DNA from: Comamonadaceae bacterium
GTDB taxonomy: Bacteria; Pseudomonadota; Gammaproteobacteria; Burkholderiales; Burkholderiaceae_C
Reading direction: 5' to 3'
Assembly: GCA_013823485.1 (NCBI GenBank)
Contig: PNMF01000017.1
Coordinates: 1-35,220 of the forward strand
Length of the DNA: 35,220 bases
Shown piece after piece: positions 27,185 through 35,220 of this stretch. Every line of letters begins with the position of its first letter. The first letter of the stretch is position 1. Below the pieces are notes generated by a model. The model ran no database searches, had not been told where the DNA came from, and saw only the letters and a program-made list of their open reading frames with translations. A program made the translations under genes and the position numbers.

Positions 27185-27463
27185 ATGAACCAACGTCAAC
27201 TGATCGCTGCTGCTGCCACCACCCTGATGTCGATGTCGCTGCTGACCGCAGCACCCGCCATGGCGCAGTCCAAGGAAAAGTGTTTCGGCATTGCCAAGGC
27301 GGGCCAGAACGACTGCGCCAGCATCAACGGTGCCCATTCCTGCGCCGGCCAGGCCAAGGTCGACAACGACAAGGGCGAGTGGAAATACGTGGCCGCCGGC
27401 ACCTGCGCCAAGATGGGCGGACTCTCGCTGGAACAAGCCAAGGCAGCCGGCAAGAAGGGCTGA
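27185..27463 (+). CDS. bufA: Bufferin precursor peptide, DUF2282 (BufA1) type
   Basis: A 92-residue precursor with a Sec-type signal peptide (cleavage near AMA-QS, residues 27/28) and a mature part of about 64 residues holding exactly four Cys: C33, C44, C53 and C74, in the family contexts [28 protein letters not shown] and AAGTCAK. DUF2282 proteins are now known as bufferins, RiPPs whose cysteines are converted by an MNIO enzyme to 5-thiooxazoles that bind copper. The signal peptide sends the product to the periplasm. The maturase gene bufB starts two bases after its stop. It ends in a lysine-rich tail (KAAGKKG). Confidence 0.93.
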
Positions 27464-27465
27464 CC

Positions 27466-28368
27466 ATGAACAGGCCCGCGCTCCCGCGCTGCGGCATCGG
27501 ATGGCGCCACCCGCACCGGCAGGCGCTGTTCGACAGCGCGGTCGAGCCGGGCTTCATCGAGGTGCACAGCGAGAACCACTTTGCACCCGGTGGCGCGGCC
27601 CGCGCCACTCTGCTGGCGGCCCGTGAACACCACGAGGTCAGCCTGCACGGGGTCGGTCTGGCGCTCGGCTCGGCCACCGGCATCGACCCCACGCATCTGC
27701 GGCAGCTGGGCGACCTGGTGCGCGCAGTGCAGCCGGTGCGAGTGAGCGACCATGCCAGCTTCGCCCGGGCCGCGTGGTCGGGCGCTGCCCCGGTGCACGC
27801 CGCCGACCTGCTGCCCACTCCCTTCACCCGCGAGGCGCTCGATGTGTTCTGCGCCAACGTCCAGCGGGTGCAGGACCACCTGCGCCGCGAGATCGCGGTG
27901 GAAAACCTGTCGTCCTACCTGCGCTGGCGCTGCGACGAAATGGACGAACCCGCCTTCCTGTGCGAACTGGTGCGGCGCACCGGCTGCAACCTGCTGCTGG
28001 ACATCAACAACCTGGTGGTGAACGCCCTGAACGACCAGCGCTGGGGCATGGGTGGCGACCCGGCCGCTGCCGCCCGCGCCTGGATCGACCGGCTGCCGGC
28101 CGGCATCGTCGCGGAGTTCCACCTGGCCGGCCACACCGATGCCGGCGACATCGTGATCGACGACCACGGCAGCCCGGTGCCGCCCGCCGTGTGGTCGCTC
28201 TACCGCCACGCGGTGCAGCGGCTGGGGCCGGTGCCCGCCCTGATCGAATGGGACACCGACCTGCCACCCTTCGAGGTGCTGATGGCGCAGGCCCTGGAGG
28301 CCGACCGCATCCAGCAGGCCGTGCTGGCGCCGCTGGGCCAGCCACAGCCGGCCGAGGTGCCGGCATGA
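27466..28368 (+). CDS. bufB: Bufferin maturase, MNIO family (DUF692)
   Basis: A 300-residue TIM-barrel enzyme of the multinuclear non-haem iron oxidases. Candidate iron ligands fall in family motifs: E37/H38 region in EVHSENHF, H61 in SLHGVGL, D95-H96 in VSDHASF, E146 in AVENLSSY, D179 in LLLDINNLVVNA, H219 and H223 in FHLAGHT, and E261/D263 in IEWDTDLP. Such enzymes oxidise precursor cysteines, here expected to be those of the preceding bufA. The ATG at 27466 is used because the first conserved motif (GIGWRHPH) follows directly. It overlaps bufC by 4 bases. Confidence 0.93.
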   Translation: MNRPALPRCGIGWRHPHRQALFDSAVEPGFIEVHSENHFAPGGAARATLLAAREHHEVSLHGVGLALGSATGIDPTHLRQLGDLVRAVQPVRVSDHASFARAAWSGAAPVHAADLLPTPFTREALDVFCANVQRVQDHLRREIAVENLSSYLRWRCDEMDEPAFLCELVRRTGCNLLLDINNLVVNALNDQRWGMGGDPAAAARAWIDRLPAGIVAEFHLAGHTDAGDIVIDDHGSPVPPAVWSLYRHAVQRLGPVPALIEWDTDLPPFEVLMAQALEADRIQQAVLAPLGQPQPAEVPA

Positions 28369-29159
28369 GCGCGCTCGCCCTGCAGCAGCAGTTGCTGGTG
28401 CAGAGCCTGTTCACCCACCCGGCCAGCGAAGAGCGGCAACGCGCCGAACGGCGGCTGGCGCCCTGGCTGCATCCCGGTGCCGATCGCGGGCTGATGGCCT
28501 ACCGGGCCCACGGACACGCGCTGGCCGAACGCTGCCTGGCGGCCGCCTACCCGGTGGTGACCCAGCTGGTCGGCGAGGCCACGATGACATCGGTGGCCCG
28601 CGCGCTGTGGCACGCCCACCCGCCGGCGGCCGGCGACATCGGCGAATGGGGCGAAGCCCTGCCCGCCTGGCTGAGCGCCTGCGACGACCTGCGGTCGGTG
28701 CCCTACCTGCCGGACGTGGCCCGGGTGGAGTGGGCGTTGCACCGCGCCGCCAGCGCCGCCGACGCGGTGCCGGACCTGCCCAGCCTGGGCCGCCTGGCCG
28801 GCGAAGGCGCCGATGCCCTGTGCCTGGCGTTCGCGCCCGGCACCGCCCTGTTCGACAGCCCCTGGCCGGTGGCCGACCTGATCAACCACCACCTGTCGGG
28901 CCAGCCGACGCTGGACCGGCTGGTGTCGGAACTCCACACCCCCGGCCAGCGCCATGCGCTGGTCGTGCGGGAGGGCTGGCAGGTGTCGGTGCTGTCCGTG
29001 GGCCCGGCCGAAGCCGCACTGACCGCCGCGCTGCTGGCGGGCCGGTCGCTGGGCGAGGCACTGGATGCCGCGGCCCTGGCCGATCCGGCCCCTTTTGATT
29101 TTTCGGCCTGGCTGCTGCCATCGGTGCAGCGCGGCCGTGTCACCGGAGTCCTGCCATGA
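28365..29159 (+). CDS. bufC: Bufferin maturation partner, DUF2063 (BufC) family
   Basis: A 264-residue protein whose N-terminal third has the DUF2063 helical pattern (LQQQLLVQSLF, GLMAYRAHGHALAERCLAAAYPVVTQLVGE, ALWHAHPPAAGDIGEWGEALPAWL) and whose C-terminal part looks like a small winged or peptide-binding domain (LVVREGWQVSVLSVGPAEAAL). Partner proteins of this family deliver the precursor peptide to the MNIO enzyme. Both ends overlap neighbours by ATGA (28365-28368 and 29156-29159), indicating tight co-translation with bufB and bufD. Confidence 0.9.
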   Translation: MSALALQQQLLVQSLFTHPASEERQRAERRLAPWLHPGADRGLMAYRAHGHALAERCLAAAYPVVTQLVGEATMTSVARALWHAHPPAAGDIGEWGEALPAWLSACDDLRSVPYLPDVARVEWALHRAASAADAVPDLPSLGRLAGEGADALCLAFAPGTALFDSPWPVADLINHHLSGQPTLDRLVSELHTPGQRHALVVREGWQVSVLSVGPAEAALTAALLAGRSLGEALDAAALADPAPFDFSAWLLPSVQRGRVTGVLP

Positions 29160-29644
29160 ACACCTTTGCCGCTCCCCTGCACCGCAGCTGGTGCGTGATC
29201 GAACGGGGCATCGCCGCCCTGCAGCCCGCCGGGGCGCTGGCGGCGCGTCTCTACATCGCGCAGGTCTTCTGGCTGGCCGGTCTGACCAAGATCCGCGACT
29301 GGGAGACCACCCTGCTGCTCTTCACCGAGGAATACCGCGTGCCGTTGCTGCCGCCGGCCTGGGCGGCCGTCTCCGGCACGGCCGGCGAACTGCTGTTGCC
29401 GGTGCTGCTGGTGCTGGGCCTCGGCGGCCGGCTGGCGGCCCTGGGGCTGAGCGTGGTCAATGCGGTGGCGGCCATCAGCCTGCCCGACATCGCCCCGGCC
29501 GCCTGGCAACAGCACCTGACCTGGGGCGCCCTGCTGGCCGCGCTGGTGCTCTCGGGCCCGGGCCGGTGGTCGGTCGACCGGCTGTGGGCCTCGATGCGGG
29601 GCCACAGCCGGCCACCGGCCGACAGCTCAGCCGGCGCGCCCTGA
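29156..29644 (+). CDS. bufD: DoxX-family membrane protein of the bufferin operon
   Basis: A 162-residue protein with four predicted membrane segments (about 22-45, 66-85, 92-112 and 120-140) in the DoxX pattern: LAARLYIAQVFWLAGLTKIRDW, then AGELLLPVLLVLGLGGRLAALGL. DoxX proteins are common last genes of bufferin-type operons; their task (redox or export support) is not settled. The last 18 bases overlap the 3' end of the glycosyltransferase gene on the other strand. Confidence 0.88.
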   Translation: MNTFAAPLHRSWCVIERGIAALQPAGALAARLYIAQVFWLAGLTKIRDWETTLLLFTEEYRVPLLPPAWAAVSGTAGELLLPVLLVLGLGGRLAALGLSVVNAVAAISLPDIAPAAWQQHLTWGALLAALVLSGPGRWSVDRLWASMRGHSRPPADSSAGAP

Positions 29645-31027
29645 ACCGGCGGCGGGTTCCTTCACCCGCCGAGCCTGCTGCCAGCGCGCGTGGTCCGCGG
29701 GTTCGTCCACGTCCCACATCACCGGCCCTTCCCACAGCGTCAGGCCGGCGCTGTGCAGGCGGTCACGGGTCTGCTGCGCCACCGCCGAGGTGCTCCAGGC
29801 CACGCCTTCAAACACCCCTGGCGCCGGCGCGCGCAGGCCCAGCAGCACATAGCCGCCGTCTTCGGCCGGCAGCAGGGCGGCGTCGTGCGACTGCAGCGCA
29901 TCGGCCACCGCCTGCAGGTGCTCCGGGGTCAGCGCCGGGCAGTCGGTCCCGAGCAGGATCAGCGGCACGCTGCTGTGCGCAAAGTGGTGCTGCACGGCAG
30001 CGGCCAGTCGCTGCCCCAGATCGCCGCCGGACTGCGGCCGCAGCGTCACGCCGTGCACCTGGCGCCAGGCCTGGAAATGGCGGTGCGTCTCGTCCGGGGC
30101 GCACCACAGCGTGAGCGGCCCGATGGCGGCCGCGCGCACCGTGAGCAGGGTCTGGCGCAGCAGGGCGCGCTGCGCGCGTGCGGCGCCGGCGGCACCCAGC
30201 AGCGGCGCGAGCCGGGTCTTGGCCAGCCCGGCCACCGGCGCCTTGGCCAGCACCGCCACCGCCGCAGCGGCGCGCGGCCGGTAGCCGTAACGCCGCGCCA
30301 GCTCGGCCGGGTCTGCACCCAGCGCCCAGGCGGCGCGAAGCCGCCACATCAGCCCGATGGTGCGCCACAGGCCATGGCGGTCCCAGCGGCGGCCGGCGGT
30401 CTGCACCCGTTCGCGCAGGCAGGCCGGCGGTGCGATGCGGCGCAGACGACGGCTCAGGTCCAGGTCCTCCATCAGGGGCAGCGCGGCAAACCCGCCGGCG
30501 GCCAGGAACAGGCGCCGCTCCACGAACAGGGCCTGGTCGCCGGTGGCCAGACCACTCCAGCGCGACCGCACATTCATGAGCGCGGCCACCATGGGCAGCA
30601 GGCGGTGACGCCCCTCGATACGCACATCGAAGCGGCCCCAGCGGGCGCCGGTGGCCATCGCCTGCTCGATGGCGCGGTCGGCTTGCGGCGGCAGGGTGGT
30701 GTCGGCGTGCAGGAACAGCAGCACGCGCCCCCGCGCGGCATCGGCGCCGGCGTTCATCTGCGCCGCGCGGCCGCGCGGTGCCCGCAGGACCCGATCGGCC
30801 CAGGGCACGGCCAGCCCGGCCGTGCCGTCCTGGCTGCCGCCGTCGACCACGATCACCTCGGCGCCCCGCTGGCGAAACGGGGCCAGCGCCTGCAGCCGGG
30901 AGACCAGCGTGGCGGCTTCGTCCAGCACCGGCACGACGATGCTCAGACCGGGCACGGCATTCAGGGGGAACGGCGAGGAAGCGGCGGGTGTGACGGGTGC
31001 GACGGGTGCAGCAGGTTGATCGGACAT
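29627..31027 (-). CDS. Fused glycosyltransferase: TIGR04283-like plus TIGR04282-like (DUF2064)
   Basis: A 466-residue protein made of two transferase domains. Domain 1 (about 27-250) is a GT2/GT-A fold: LSIVVPVLDEA, VDGGSQDGT (61-69), LHADT (106-110) and GDQALFV. Domain 2 (about 256-455) is the DUF2064/TIGR04282 nucleotidyltransferase-like fold: VLAKAPVAGLAKTRL, GTDCPAL (360-366) and PAEDGGYVLLGL (387-398). Both families are named rSAM/selenodomain-associated or arsenosugar-biosynthesis transferases and are often separate neighbouring genes. The ATG at 31027 is chosen since the frame further upstream is antisense to DUF3047. The nearest gene is DUF3047, divergent, then the selenium genes 1 kb away. 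The sugar acceptor is unknown. Confidence 0.85.
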   Translation of the reverse strand: MSDQPAAPVAPVTPAASSPFPLNAVPGLSIVVPVLDEAATLVSRLQALAPFRQRGAEVIVVDGGSQDGTAGLAVPWADRVLRAPRGRAAQMNAGADAARGRVLLFLHADTTLPPQADRAIEQAMATGARWGRFDVRIEGRHRLLPMVAALMNVRSRWSGLATGDQALFVERRLFLAAGGFAALPLMEDLDLSRRLRRIAPPACLRERVQTAGRRWDRHGLWRTIGLMWRLRAAWALGADPAELARRYGYRPRAAAAVAVLAKAPVAGLAKTRLAPLLGAAGAARAQRALLRQTLLTVRAAAIGPLTLWCAPDETHRHFQAWRQVHGVTLRPQSGGDLGQRLAAAVQHHFAHSSVPLILLGTDCPALTPEHLQAVADALQSHDAALLPAEDGGYVLLGLRAPAPGVFEGVAWSTSAVAQQTRDRLHSAGLTLWEGPVMWDVDEPADHARWQQARRVKEPAAGSGRAG

Positions 31028-31995: not shown

Positions 31996-32700
31996 TCAGC
32001 AACCGAGCTGATCGGCCAGGTGCAGCAGGTCGCGCGCGTGCAGCGTGTTGGCCGGGTCGGGCGACACGTCCTTGATGTGGGCCGCGCCGAATTCGGTCGG
32101 CCGCTCGATGTAGGCCGTGGCCAGACCGCAGGTGCGGGCAGCGGCCAGATCGTCCTGGTGGGCCGCCACCAGCATCACCTGCGAAGGCGCCAGGTCGAAG
32201 GTTTCGACCACGCCGAGGTAGGTGCGCGGATCGGGCTTGTAGGCCCGGAACACCTCGGCCGACAGCACGCAGTCCCAGGGCAGACCGGCCCGTCTGGCCA
32301 TGTGGGTGAGCAGGCTGATGTTGCCGTTGGAGAGGGTCGTGATCAGGAAGCGGGTCTTGAGCCGCTGCAGGCCGGCCACGCTGTCGGCCCAGGGGTCGAG
32401 CCGGTGCCACACCCGGTTGAGGTGGCGGCGCGCTTCGTCGTCCAGGTGGGCCAGACCGAAGCCGGGCAGGATGCCGTCCAGGATCTGGCGGTGCAGTTCG
32501 TCGATGCGGGTCCAGCCCTGCTGCCCCGAACGCACCCGCTGCATGGCCGGCTGGTAGCCGGCGCGCCAGGCCAGCGCAAAGGCATCGGCATCGACCTGCG
32601 GATACAGCGCCTGAACCTCGCGCACGATGCTGCCGTGCCAGTCGACCACGGTGCCGAAGATGTCGAAGGCCAGGACGCGGATGTCATCGTGCCGCGCCAT
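31996..32700 (-). CDS. HAD hydrolase of the haloacid dehalogenase type II family
   Basis: A 234-residue HAD enzyme: nucleophile D13 in LAFDIFGTVVDW, motif II serine in TTLSNGN, motif III Lys in AYKPDPRTY and acidic motif in VAAHQDDLAAA. It fits the 2-haloacid dehalogenase type II family by overall sequence. In true L-2-haloacid dehalogenases the last motif reads S-x-N-x-x-D; here the Ser is replaced and the Asn is absent, so dehalogenase activity is doubtful and a phosphatase-like role is possible. It starts 3 bases after the selD stop, so it is co-transcribed with senB and selD. Confidence 0.85.
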   Translation of the reverse strand: MARHDDIRVLAFDIFGTVVDWHGSIVREVQALYPQVDADAFALAWRAGYQPAMQRVRSGQQGWTRIDELHRQILDGILPGFGLAHLDDEARRHLNRVWHRLDPWADSVAGLQRLKTRFLITTLSNGNISLLTHMARRAGLPWDCVLSAEVFRAYKPDPRTYLGVVETFDLAPSQVMLVAAHQDDLAAARTCGLATAYIERPTEFGAAHIKDVSPDPANTLHARDLLHLADQLGC

Positions 32701-32703
32701 GGA

Positions 32704-33777
32704 TCACTCCACCGTCAGGCGCACGCCGCTGCCGTCGGCGGCCACGATCGAGCCGACCTCGGCCGCCTCGGCAAAACCGTGGCGGTGGAAGATGGCCAGC
32801 ACCTCGTCCACCGAAGCGGCGTCGCACGACACCAGGAGGCCGCCGCTGGTCTGCGGGTCGGACAGCAGCGCCTGGTCGACCGGCTGCAGCCCCGCACCCA
32901 GCCGCACCTCATGGCCGTAAGCGGCCCAGTTGCGGCCCGATGCGCCGGTGACCATGCCGGCGCCCGCCAGCTCGCGCACCGCCGGCAGCAGCGGCACGCG
33001 CGCCATGTCGATGTGCACCGCCGCGTTCGCGCCACGGGCCATCTCCAGCACATGGCCGGCCAGGCCGAAGCCAGTGATGTCGGTCAGCGCATGCACGCCG
33101 GGCAGCGCAGCCAGATCCGGGCCGGGGGTGTTGAGGCGGGTGGTGTTCTCGATCATGCGGGCGTAGCCCTCGGCATCGAGCCGGTCCTTCTTGAGCGCGG
33201 CCGACAGCACACCCACGCCGACCGGCTTGCCCAGGATGAGGCGGTCGCCGACGCGGGCGTCGGCGTTGCGCTTGACCCGCTTGGGGTGCACCAGACCCAG
33301 CGCCACCAGCCCATAGATCGGCTCGACCGAATCGATGGTGTGGCCACCCGCGATCGGGATGCCGGCGGCACGGCACACGTCCTGCCCGCCGGCCAGGATG
33401 CGGCCGATGGTGTCGGTGGACAGCACCGAGATCGGCATGCCCACCAGCGCCAGCGCCATGATGGGCGTGCCGCCCATGGCATAGACGTCGCTGATGGCGT
33501 TGGTGGCGGCGATGCGGCCGAAGTCGTACGGATCGTCGACGATGGGCATGAAGAAATCGGTGGTGGCGATCAGCGCCTGCTCGTCGTTGAGCTGGTAGAC
33601 CGCCGCATCGTCGGCGGTCTCGATGCCCACCAGCAACTCCTTCGGAATGGGCATCTGTGCCGTGCCCTTGAGGATCTCGCTGAGCACGCCGGGGGCGATC
33701 TTGCAGCCGCAACCGCCGCCGTGCGAAAGGCTGGTCAGGCGGGGCTGGGTCGGGGGGGTGGCGGATGAAGTGGTCAT
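32704..33777 (-). CDS. selD: Selenide, water dikinase / selenophosphate synthetase (SelD or SenC)
   Basis: Makes selenophosphate from selenide and ATP. The 357-residue protein has the N-terminal catalytic motif GGGCGCKIAPG with C23 and C25, where C23 and K26 correspond to E. coli SelD Cys17 and Lys20, and then the AIRS-fold motifs DDAAVY, TTDFFMPIVDDPYDFGRIAATNAISD (here about 82-107), GGHTIDS and DPQTSGGLL. The active residue is Cys, not selenocysteine. Its ATG overlaps the senB stop (ATGA, 33777-33774). Selenophosphate feeds selenocysteine, selenouridine tRNA and selenosugar pathways; coupling to senB argues for the last, in which the gene would be called senC. Confidence 0.93.
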   Translation of the reverse strand: MTTSSATPPTQPRLTSLSHGGGCGCKIAPGVLSEILKGTAQMPIPKELLVGIETADDAAVYQLNDEQALIATTDFFMPIVDDPYDFGRIAATNAISDVYAMGGTPIMALALVGMPISVLSTDTIGRILAGGQDVCRAAGIPIAGGHTIDSVEPIYGLVALGLVHPKRVKRNADARVGDRLILGKPVGVGVLSAALKKDRLDAEGYARMIENTTRLNTPGPDLAALPGVHALTDITGFGLAGHVLEMARGANAAVHIDMARVPLLPAVRELAGAGMVTGASGRNWAAYGHEVRLGAGLQPVDQALLSDPQTSGGLLVSCDAASVDEVLAIFHRHGFAEAAEVGSIVAADGSGVRLTVE

Positions 33778-34787
33778 GCGGGGGCTCCGGCAGGCGGGTG
33801 GGATGGAGAACGGGAGAAGTCCAGCGCGCGCAGCAGGGCGGCACGCTCGGACGCGGGGTCGAACAGGTGGGATCGCGCTTCGCATTGTGCGTGCAGGCCG
33901 GCCAGGCTGAACGCGGCAGGCCCCTGCTGGCTGGCCCTCAGGGCACGCAGGGCATCGGCCAGGGCGGCCGGGTCACCGGCCGGAAAATAGCCGCCGTAGC
34001 CTTCACCCAGCATGCCCATATTGCCGTCGATGAGCGACGCCAGCACCGGCGTGCCGGACCGCACCGCTTCCATCACGACATGGGCACCCCCTTCCATGCG
34101 GCTGGTGTGCACCAGCAGGTGGGCGCGCTGGATGCGGTCGCGGGTGCGGTCATGGGGCAGCGCACCCAGCCAGCGGTAGTGCGGGCACTCGGCGGCGGTG
34201 CGCTCTGCGGCTGCCCCGAGCGCAGGGTCCAGGGCGGCGCCGATGTGGTCGACCCGAATGCCTTCGTCCGGCCGCAGGCGGCGCACCGCTGCCAGCAGGG
34301 TGGCCGGGTCTTTTTCCTCGCGCAGGTGACCCACCGCCACCACCCGCAGGCGATCGGCCGGCTTGTCCAGGGTGCGCCGGGCGGTGCACGACTGCAGCAC
34401 CACCTGGCAGCGCCCGCGCAGCGCCTCGGGCAGGCTGAGCGGGCCCCGGTCCTGCAGGACGATCAGGCGGTGCGCCAGCCGCAGCGAGGCCTGGGCCGAC
34501 GCATCGACCGCGATGTCGCGGTACAGATCGGTGCCGGTCAGCGCCAGCACCAGGGGCCGGTCCGGGTGGCGCTGCGCCCACGCCGCCACGCTGGCGGCAG
34601 AACGGCGGGCGTGCAGGGCCAGCAAGGCGTCGGGCACCGGTCCGGGCAGGTCGGGCGACCATTGCTTGAGCAGCGTGACCCGCCAGTGCGCCGCCAGCAG
34701 CCGTGCCCAGCGGCTGGCGGTCTGCCAGTTGCCGTTGTTGGCATCGGCCAGTGCCGGCGTGACGATGACGAGCGACGGTTTCGACAT
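33774..34787 (-). CDS. senB: Selenosugar synthase SenB family glycosyltransferase (TIGR04348)
   Basis: A 337-residue GT-B glycosyltransferase. Motifs seen: VTPALADANNGNWQTASRW at 9-27, LTGTDLYRDI (83-92), AVGHLREEKDP (151-161) and the donor-binding E-X7-E pattern E232 to E240 in SRMEGGAHVVMEAV. The opening motif and the HLREEKDP segment match the TIGR04348 family that includes SenB of Variovorax, which uses selenophosphate and a UDP-sugar to form a selenosugar in selenoneine synthesis. Overlap with selD supports this. I assign the family from remembered motifs; substrate use is inferred. It is divergent from a PhnD-like binding-protein gene. Confidence 0.82.
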   Translation of the reverse strand: MSKPSLVIVTPALADANNGNWQTASRWARLLAAHWRVTLLKQWSPDLPGPVPDALLALHARRSAASVAAWAQRHPDRPLVLALTGTDLYRDIAVDASAQASLRLAHRLIVLQDRGPLSLPEALRGRCQVVLQSCTARRTLDKPADRLRVVAVGHLREEKDPATLLAAVRRLRPDEGIRVDHIGAALDPALGAAAERTAAECPHYRWLGALPHDRTRDRIQRAHLLVHTSRMEGGAHVVMEAVRSGTPVLASLIDGNMGMLGEGYGGYFPAGDPAALADALRALRASQQGPAAFSLAGLHAQCEARSHLFDPASERAALLRALDFSRSPSHPPAGAPA

Positions 34788-34944
34788 GGATGTGTGGATT
34801 CTCCCCCGGGCATCGGGCCACCCCGGTCACCCGGGTGAAAGCCCCTGCCGCCCGCACCGCCGTTGATCCGGTTCTAATACGGGCGGCCGCGATTTCCCCG
34901 GCCTCCCGCACCACCCCGTTTTCACCCTTTAGCCTGGAAACACC

Positions 34945-35220
34945 ATGACCCTGCTGACCACCCTGCGCCGTGCCCTGGCCGCCGCTGCCCTGCTGGCCAC
35001 CGCCACCGCCGTGCACGCCCAGACCCTGCGCGTGACCACCATCCCCGAAGAAGCCGCCACCGAGCAGATCCGCAAGTTCACCCCGCTGGCCAGCTACCTG
35101 GAGAAGCAGCTGGGCATGAAGGTGGAGTTCACCCCGGTCAGCGACTACCCGGCCGCCGTGGAAGCGCTGGTCAACAAGAAGGTCGATCTGGTGTGGTTCG
35201 GTGGCTTCACCCATGTGCAG
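34945..35220 (+). CDS. PhnD-like ABC transporter substrate-binding protein, putative selenate/selenium type (partial)
   Basis: The first 92 residues of a periplasmic binding protein, cut by the window end. Signal peptide 1-26 (ending AVHA-Q), then LRVTTIPEEAATEQIRKFTP, a YLEKQLGMKVEFTPVSDY segment and LVNKKVDLVWFGGFTHVQ, the opening lobe of the phosphate/phosphonate-binding (PhnD) superfamily. These segments resemble the group labelled putative selenate ABC transporter binding protein (TIGR04553), which occurs beside selD. Being divergent from senB-selD supports a selenium role over phosphonate or phosphite uptake. The 157-base gap to senB contains a TAATAC (34875-34880) without a fitting -35, and the palindrome CACCCGGGTG (34828-34837). 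Confidence 0.85.
   Translation, partial: MTLLTTLRRALAAAALLATATAVHAQTLRVTTIPEEAATEQIRKFTPLASYLEKQLGMKVEFTPVSDYPAAVEALVNKKVDLVWFGGFTHVQ

Follow-up and report, generated by a model that had tools for sequence, protein, structure and literature searches.

A probable selenoneine pathway split over two loci, with a candidate selenium importer, in a Comamonadaceae draft genome

A selenosugar synthase gene that overlaps a selenophosphate synthase gene, with no enzyme beside them that would complete selenoneine, raises the question of what the selenosugar is made for. The question is posed here by a stretch of 35,220 nucleotides from a Comamonadaceae bacterium (GCA_013823485.1, PNMF01000017.1), hereafter the window. 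It makes up the whole of contig C17 in a draft genome of 2.97 Mb and 218 contigs, with a completeness of 88.8% and a contamination of 4.2%. Our findings make it very probable that the senB-selD pair is one arm of a complete selenoneine pathway whose senA and egtD arm lies elsewhere in the genome. For a divergently encoded ATP-binding cassette (ABC) transporter, the most likely role is import of a selenium oxyanion. The pathway itself is known; its split layout is uncommon, and the transporter is a well-linked candidate selenium importer.

The gene order was read directly from the sequence. On the minus strand, senB (33774-34787; 337 aa) encodes the selenosugar synthase, a GT-B Se-glycosyltransferase matched by TIGR04348, and its stop codon overlaps by four bases (ATGA) the start codon of selD, also called senC (32704-33777; 357 aa), the selenophosphate synthase gene matched by NF002098 and TIGR00476. 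Three bases separate the selD stop from the start of a HAD type II hydrolase gene on the same strand (31996-32700; 234 aa; TIGR01428), a neighbour that is probably co-transcribed. On the other side, an intergenic region of 157 bases (34788-34944) divides the senB start from the ATG of an ABC binding protein of the putative selenate type (TIGR04553) on the plus strand, whose frame (34945-35220) is still open at the end of C17 and yields the first 92 aa. The outer bounds (31996 to 35220), the overlap and both spacings had been given in a preliminary description of the window, and all were exact on re-reading.

Selenosugar synthesis and the distant SenA and EgtD arm

Selenoneine biosynthesis was reportedly assigned to the sen cluster (senA-senB-senC) of Variovorax paradoxus by Kayrouz et al. 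in 2022. This role of the V. paradoxus cluster is described in the available portions of PMC9814287, and also in those of PMC10702425 and PMC10891094, of which the latter two give selenophosphate as the selenium donor of SenB. The window protein scores 421.7 bits on the SenB equivalog model TIGR04348 (cut-off 300); throughout, a gene is called present when its profile score exceeds the curated family cut-off, unless stated otherwise. Its closest solved chains in a phmmer search are the SenB crystal structures 8jjq, 8fbx, 8jjn and 8k5u (E 1e-102 to 1e-105), and it keeps N20, T23, H58, R61, T83, T85, D86, R155, K158, E231 and the EGGAHV motif of V. paradoxus SenB. The portions available of PMC10891094 assign N20, T23 and E231 to the sugar donor, K158 to cleavage of the Se-P bond, and H58, R61, T83, T85 and R155 to the selenophosphate (SeP) pocket, and also list the EGGAHV motif.

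Conservation of these residues extends across the family. For comparison we used the best 80 of 528 confirmed senB loci, some of which are incomplete stretches. In the alignment, which covers 78 of the 80, 14 of 17 checked positions are invariant; R61 and H235 each vary in one locus and V236 in six. A tree of 91 rows, from which a filter left out L026 and L051, splits 85 SenB-like rows from 6 ordinary GT4 rows at 100/100, places V. paradoxus SenB inside the SenB group, and joins the window protein to its counterparts in G013 and G009, two genomes of the same genus, at 100/99. A position outside SenB in such a tree had been named beforehand as the result that would overturn the assignment, and the protein falls inside. 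By analogy with characterised homologues, it would make a selenosugar from selenophosphate and a UDP-sugar. The SelD match is likewise far above chance on both SelD models, with 537.8 bits on NF002098 (cut-off 299) and 428.3 on TIGR00476 (cut-off 125). The earlier reading of selenide activation followed by selenosugar formation was right in that SenB and SelD are both real.

The preliminary description had also noted, correctly, that SenA is not in the window, and had proposed either that it lies elsewhere or that the organism makes another selenosugar-derived product. The first proposal was borne out. The FGE-sulfatase domain was matched at three places in the genome, and two of these belong to a single 432-aa protein on contig C21. 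This protein is SenA, with 502.1 bits on NF041186 (cut-off 420), and egtD lies convergent with its gene (TIGR03438, 350.1 bits; cut-off 290.9). With genes for SenA and EgtD in the genome, there is no need to postulate a new product. SenA is a relative of EgtB, and EgtD is common to the selenoneine and ergothioneine pathways, but the C21 enzyme misses the EgtB cut-off (TIGR03440, 242.5 versus 360), and the FGE-sulfatase matches found in the draft include no separate EgtB-like protein. All components compared with the V. paradoxus system, namely SenB, SelD/SenC, SenA and EgtD, are thus present here over their cut-offs. The difference lies in the arrangement: senA-egtD and senB-selD occupy separate contigs in this genome.

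Two further genomes place this arrangement in context. In both G009 and G013, the order DUF3047-HAD-selD-senB, followed divergently by binding protein, ATPase, permease and permease, is contiguous, and senA-egtD stands about 60 kb from the senB half on the same contig. Because both halves lie there on one contig, the split layout is inherited in a small clade. Parts of C21 on either side of senA-egtD are syntenic with the G009 and G013 stretch, on which ground we reject contamination as the source of C21. The C17, C21 and C36 pieces (C36 carries the rest of the transporter, described below) have a G+C content of 0.68-0.695 and tetranucleotide correlations to the window of 0.992 and 0.986; comparable values come from other contigs of the same genome (0.985-0.989) and from the stretches of the two same-genus genomes, G009 and G013 (0.986-0.993), so this agreement only fails to reveal a mismatch. 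About 4.6 kb of C21 (L087:3623-8239) has no counterpart in the G009 and G013 stretches compared.

Co-occurrence of the two arms was surveyed in 100 relatives, this genome included. SenA is present in 45 of the 49 genomes with SenB and in 4 of the 51 others, these being the only cases of SenA over its cut-off without SenB over its own. Of the 45 genomes with both, 41 have the two genes within 2.5 kb of each other. The distance is about 60 kb in G009 and G013, and this genome and G061 carry them on different contigs. SenB without SenA over the cut-off occurs in four genomes: G029 and G041 have an adjoining SenA piece, and G073 and G087 have none. Contiguity of senA and senB is a usual feature of layout and not part of the chemistry, and searches for contiguous clusters alone would score such split genomes as incomplete.

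Some points weigh against this reading. The 100 relatives cannot be counted as independent, since a single genus accounts for 60 of them (this genome included), so the co-occurrence p-values overstate the case; the draft state of the assembly makes absences weak evidence; and no SenA is seen in the available DNA of 22 of the 80 senB loci, some being incomplete stretches.

As a separate observation, seven loci (L030, L032, L040, L048, L070, L077 and L083; 3 Curvibacter and 1 Hylemonella among them) have egtD directly upstream of senB and no senA match in the available DNA, which is short in L030 and others; they may represent another split or SenA-poor layout. The literature searched, including the available portions of PMC13077682, PMC7278568 and PMC10295655, holds no report of selenoneine together with Hydrogenophaga.

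The proposed pathway builds on the identity of the genes, the conservation of SenB residues, the genomic context and the inherited linkage, and takes every reaction and the transporter substrate from characterised homologues. SelD would convert selenide and ATP to selenophosphate, and SenB would pass the selenium on to a UDP-sugar to form a selenosugar. Histidine would be trimethylated to hercynine by EgtD. SenA would then join the selenium of the selenosugar to hercynine, with elimination and reduction giving selenoneine. The divergent four-gene ABC transporter would, most likely, import a selenium oxyanion.

The divergent transporter

The 92-aa fragment in the window is best matched by TIGR04553 (89.3 bits over model positions 1-66), followed by TIGR01098 (80.6) and PhnD (62.7), and it falls below the TIGR04553 cut-off of 250 because it is truncated at the contig end. 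Searching the genome with TIGR04553 returned this fragment, a piece at C36:1-405 (model 127-265, 168.5 bits) and a separate, weaker match on C9 (104.3). The genome's own copy is thus split over two contig ends, its 89.3 and 168.5 bits falling on non-overlapping parts of the model and each piece below the cut-off. Contig C36 begins with the end of the binding protein and continues with an ATPase and two permeases, syntenic with G009 and G013; these are the components that the preliminary description had expected past position 35220. In G009 and G013 the binding-protein gene is intact, with 174 bases between the stretches that match the C17 and C36 pieces.

Two readings of this transporter deserve weight. 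We favour, with moderate confidence, a selenium importer. TIGR04553 is an NCBIfam hypothetical equivalog for a putative selenate ABC binding protein, and the system agrees with it both in score (about 354 bits for orthologues) and in being a four-gene ABC operon beside selenium genes. The rival possibility, which we regard as somewhat doubtful, is a phosphonate or phosphite importer that neighbours the sen genes by chance. The superfamily and operon make-up are indeed common to PhnD/PhnE phosphonate and PtxB phosphite transporters, but the intact orthologues separate the two: those of G013 and L008 score 353.6 and 356.2 bits on TIGR04553 and fail PhnD (169.0 and 163.4; cut-off 261.1), which supports the likeness to the putative selenate type first noted for the fragment. 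The C36 ATPase likewise stays below PhnC (174.8; cut-off 266.1), as does permease 1 below PhnE (196.9; cut-off 216.7). Beyond the permeases, the neighbour scanned is an opposite-strand gene resembling a PQQ-type dehydrogenase (93.5 bits, under cut-off), not a phn or other phosphonate-breakdown gene. The remaining genes, which had been suggested as a test for a phosphonate system, are an ATPase and two PhnE-like permeases. The non-phosphonate next gene and the fit of the binding protein to TIGR04553 speak against such a system, and one permease speaks for it.

Linkage to the sen genes is the second line of evidence. Counting this genome's split copy, 37 of the 49 SenB genomes have TIGR04553, as do 9 of the 51 that lack SenB. 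Most of the genomes compared are close kin, which makes these counts non-independent. Among the 38 other genomes with both TIGR04553 and a sen gene over cut-off, the two lie within 20 kb in 26, far apart on one contig in 2 and on different contigs in 10. The binding protein was found in 44 of the 80 senB loci, and the linkage persists across several gene orders, which argues against a chance neighbour: it adjoins senB in the window, L055 and L078, lies beyond egtD-senA in many loci, and is on the opposite strand in L071. SelD is present in 43 of 45 genomes with TIGR04553 over cut-off; it is useless as a discriminator, since it exceeds its cut-off in 87 of the 100 relatives anyway.

Against the importer stand several results. 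Permease 2 passes PhnE (257.9 versus 216.7), the only component to do so within a PhnC, PhnD and PhnE set that does not exceed its cut-offs together. The nearest solved chain to the intact binding-protein orthologue is 7s6g, named a phosphonate binding protein, and the nearest solved chains as a group carry the names of phosphonate and phosphite binding proteins. In fourteen genomes sen genes occur without TIGR04553 over cut-off, and seven show the reverse. The rival also draws on a 2026 review, PMC13188914, whose available portions state that no specific high-affinity selenium transport system has been identified in prokaryotes and that no dedicated bacterial selenium importer is known. The literature searched holds no demonstrated substrate for TIGR04553, and the one paper found to name a protein so annotated, PMC13077682, guesses in the portions seen a role in selenite export from the annotation alone. 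Set beside the 2026 review, the transporter described here, tied to selenoneine genes in several different arrangements, offers a clear candidate for a bacterial importer dedicated to selenium.

Neighbouring genes and other uses of selenium

The newest lead is a gene beside senA on C21. It encodes an ATP-grasp-like protein of about 432 aa (L087:6733-8028, equal to C21:18732-20027), divergent from senA and 90 bases away, with ends set by hand within a longer open frame; it lies in the 4.6 kb described above, and G009 and G013 are without it. The protein has no Pfam match at 1e-3 and one weak NCBIfam match of 42.6 bits, far under cut-off. A profile of seven relatives gave weak matches to carbamoyl-phosphate synthase and the L-amino acid ligase BL00235. 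A low-confidence structural model of the relatives (mean pLDDT 64.4; 151 of 447 residues below 50) resembles L-amino acid ligases and carboxylases, and at such pLDDT the fold match says little beyond ATP-grasp.

Relatives of this protein recur near the pathway. Of the 80 loci, 7 have one within 10 kb of senB, and in four of these (L042, L052, L065 and L069) it is close upstream of egtD; among the 100 related genomes, 21 have a match at 1e-20. Of the 16 closer ones (53-60% identity, plus this genome), compared by eye, 9 are no more than about 20 kb from a gene of the SenA or EgtB-like kind, 1 is at about 30 kb and 6 are on contigs without one. Gene order in these neighbourhoods was likewise read by eye from a crude frame-composition caller, not a gene finder; clustering of open reading frames around the gene gave mostly shadow frames of G+C-rich DNA and was not used. 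The literature searched contains no report of this ATP-grasp gene. Conceivably, the protein is a ligase that couples an amino acid to selenoneine or hercynine and yields a new conjugated selenometabolite; its relatives recur beside egtD and sen genes in families other than this one. We consider this improbable, and the support for a tailored selenoneine, though it is a possible product, is weak. In the loci viewed, a YHS-type lipoprotein and a patatin-like protein are also among its companions, and its function may therefore lie outside selenium chemistry. Even so, the gene is a concrete target in the search for further selenium metabolites.

The HAD gene raises a further alternative, that it encodes a dedicated pathway step such as a phosphatase acting on a selenophospho-sugar, which we judge to be very unlikely. 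Its 3-base spacing to selD on the same strand is suggestive, and the gene adjoins selD in G009 and G013 too. In 20 of the 80 loci, from Hydrogenophaga and other Burkholderiales, the strand of senB also carries a close relative (70-83% identity) downstream, tens of bases to a few kb beyond selD; two Limnohabitans loci have a 29% match alone. No close relative is seen in the other 60 loci, some of them incomplete stretches, and with a close relative in only 20 of the 80, at varying distance, we regard a role in the pathway as unsupported. The protein itself is a haloacid dehalogenase type II (TIGR01428, 168.3 bits; cut-off 125.4). HAD phosphatases carry Asp two residues after the nucleophile, but its motif FDIFGT carries Phe there and looks dehalogenase-like, not phosphatase-like. 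According to the available portions of PMC10891094, moreover, SenB cleaves the Se-P bond itself, probably through K158.

It could also be argued that SelD mainly serves MnmH, with its linkage to senB incidental, an idea to which we attach little credence. The genome does encode MnmH, on contig C138 (TIGR03167, 343.7 bits; cut-off 219.75), and SelD is the more widespread protein, its 87 of 100 relatives comparing with 49 for SenB. On the other side, selD overlaps senB by ATGA, selenophosphate is the known SenB donor (PMC10702425 and PMC10891094, in the portions available), and a SelD match accompanies senB in many of the 80 loci, close in 44 and distant (33-40% identity) in 28 more. SelD probably feeds MnmH as well, for selenouridine in tRNA, and selenophosphate in this genome is likely to go into both selenoneine and tRNA selenouridine. 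Beside the 80 senB loci, MnmH gave no match at 1e-20. Of the genes that the preliminary description had listed for a genome search, senA, egtD and mnmH are over cut-off; SelA gave 0 matches and SelB sub-cut-off matches alone (best 112.1 versus 242.25) in this draft of 88.8% completeness. Because SelA was not found, SelD does not appear to feed selenocysteine.

Fused forms of SelD were also seen. In L042 (8235-10523), a distant SelD-like match sits within a 762-aa open reading frame whose start, by eye, resembles an NAD(P)H dehydrogenase; this fused SelD-like gene overlaps senB by four bases. Many relatives have their SelD match in open frames of 760-890 aa.

The remaining alternative, that SenB serves here, with no part for SenA, to make a different selenosugar-derived product, can appeal to senA lying outside the window and to SenB-type proteins over cut-off without SenA in G073 and G087, where SelD is on another contig or more than 500 kb from the SenB-type gene, but we reject it as scarcely credible for this genome, in which SenA and EgtD are over cut-off and the split layout is common to G009 and G013.

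The SenB-family proteins of G073 (L167, G073:C69) and G087 (L168, G087:C1) are of interest in their own right. They score 444 and 418.7 bits on TIGR04348, come from near-complete genomes, and keep the catalytic residues, with EGGANV instead of EGGAHV; their genes are convergent, by eye, with an HDOD-like gene. They are possibly other selenosugar users, or TIGR04348 may be too wide a model.

Other genes in the window

A fusion gene on the minus strand (29630-31027), separated by a single gene (DUF3047) from the end of the selenosugar operon at which HAD lies, combines the TIGR04283 and TIGR04282 "arsenosugar biosynthesis glycosyltransferase" families, with 269.4 and 193.3 bits, both over cut-off. 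The plus strand (27379-29644) carries a bufferin-like copper RiPP (ribosomally synthesised and post-translationally modified peptide) operon that encodes an MNIO maturase, a DUF2063 partner and a DoxX protein; the maturase scores 297.7 bits on BufB, just under the cut-off of 310.

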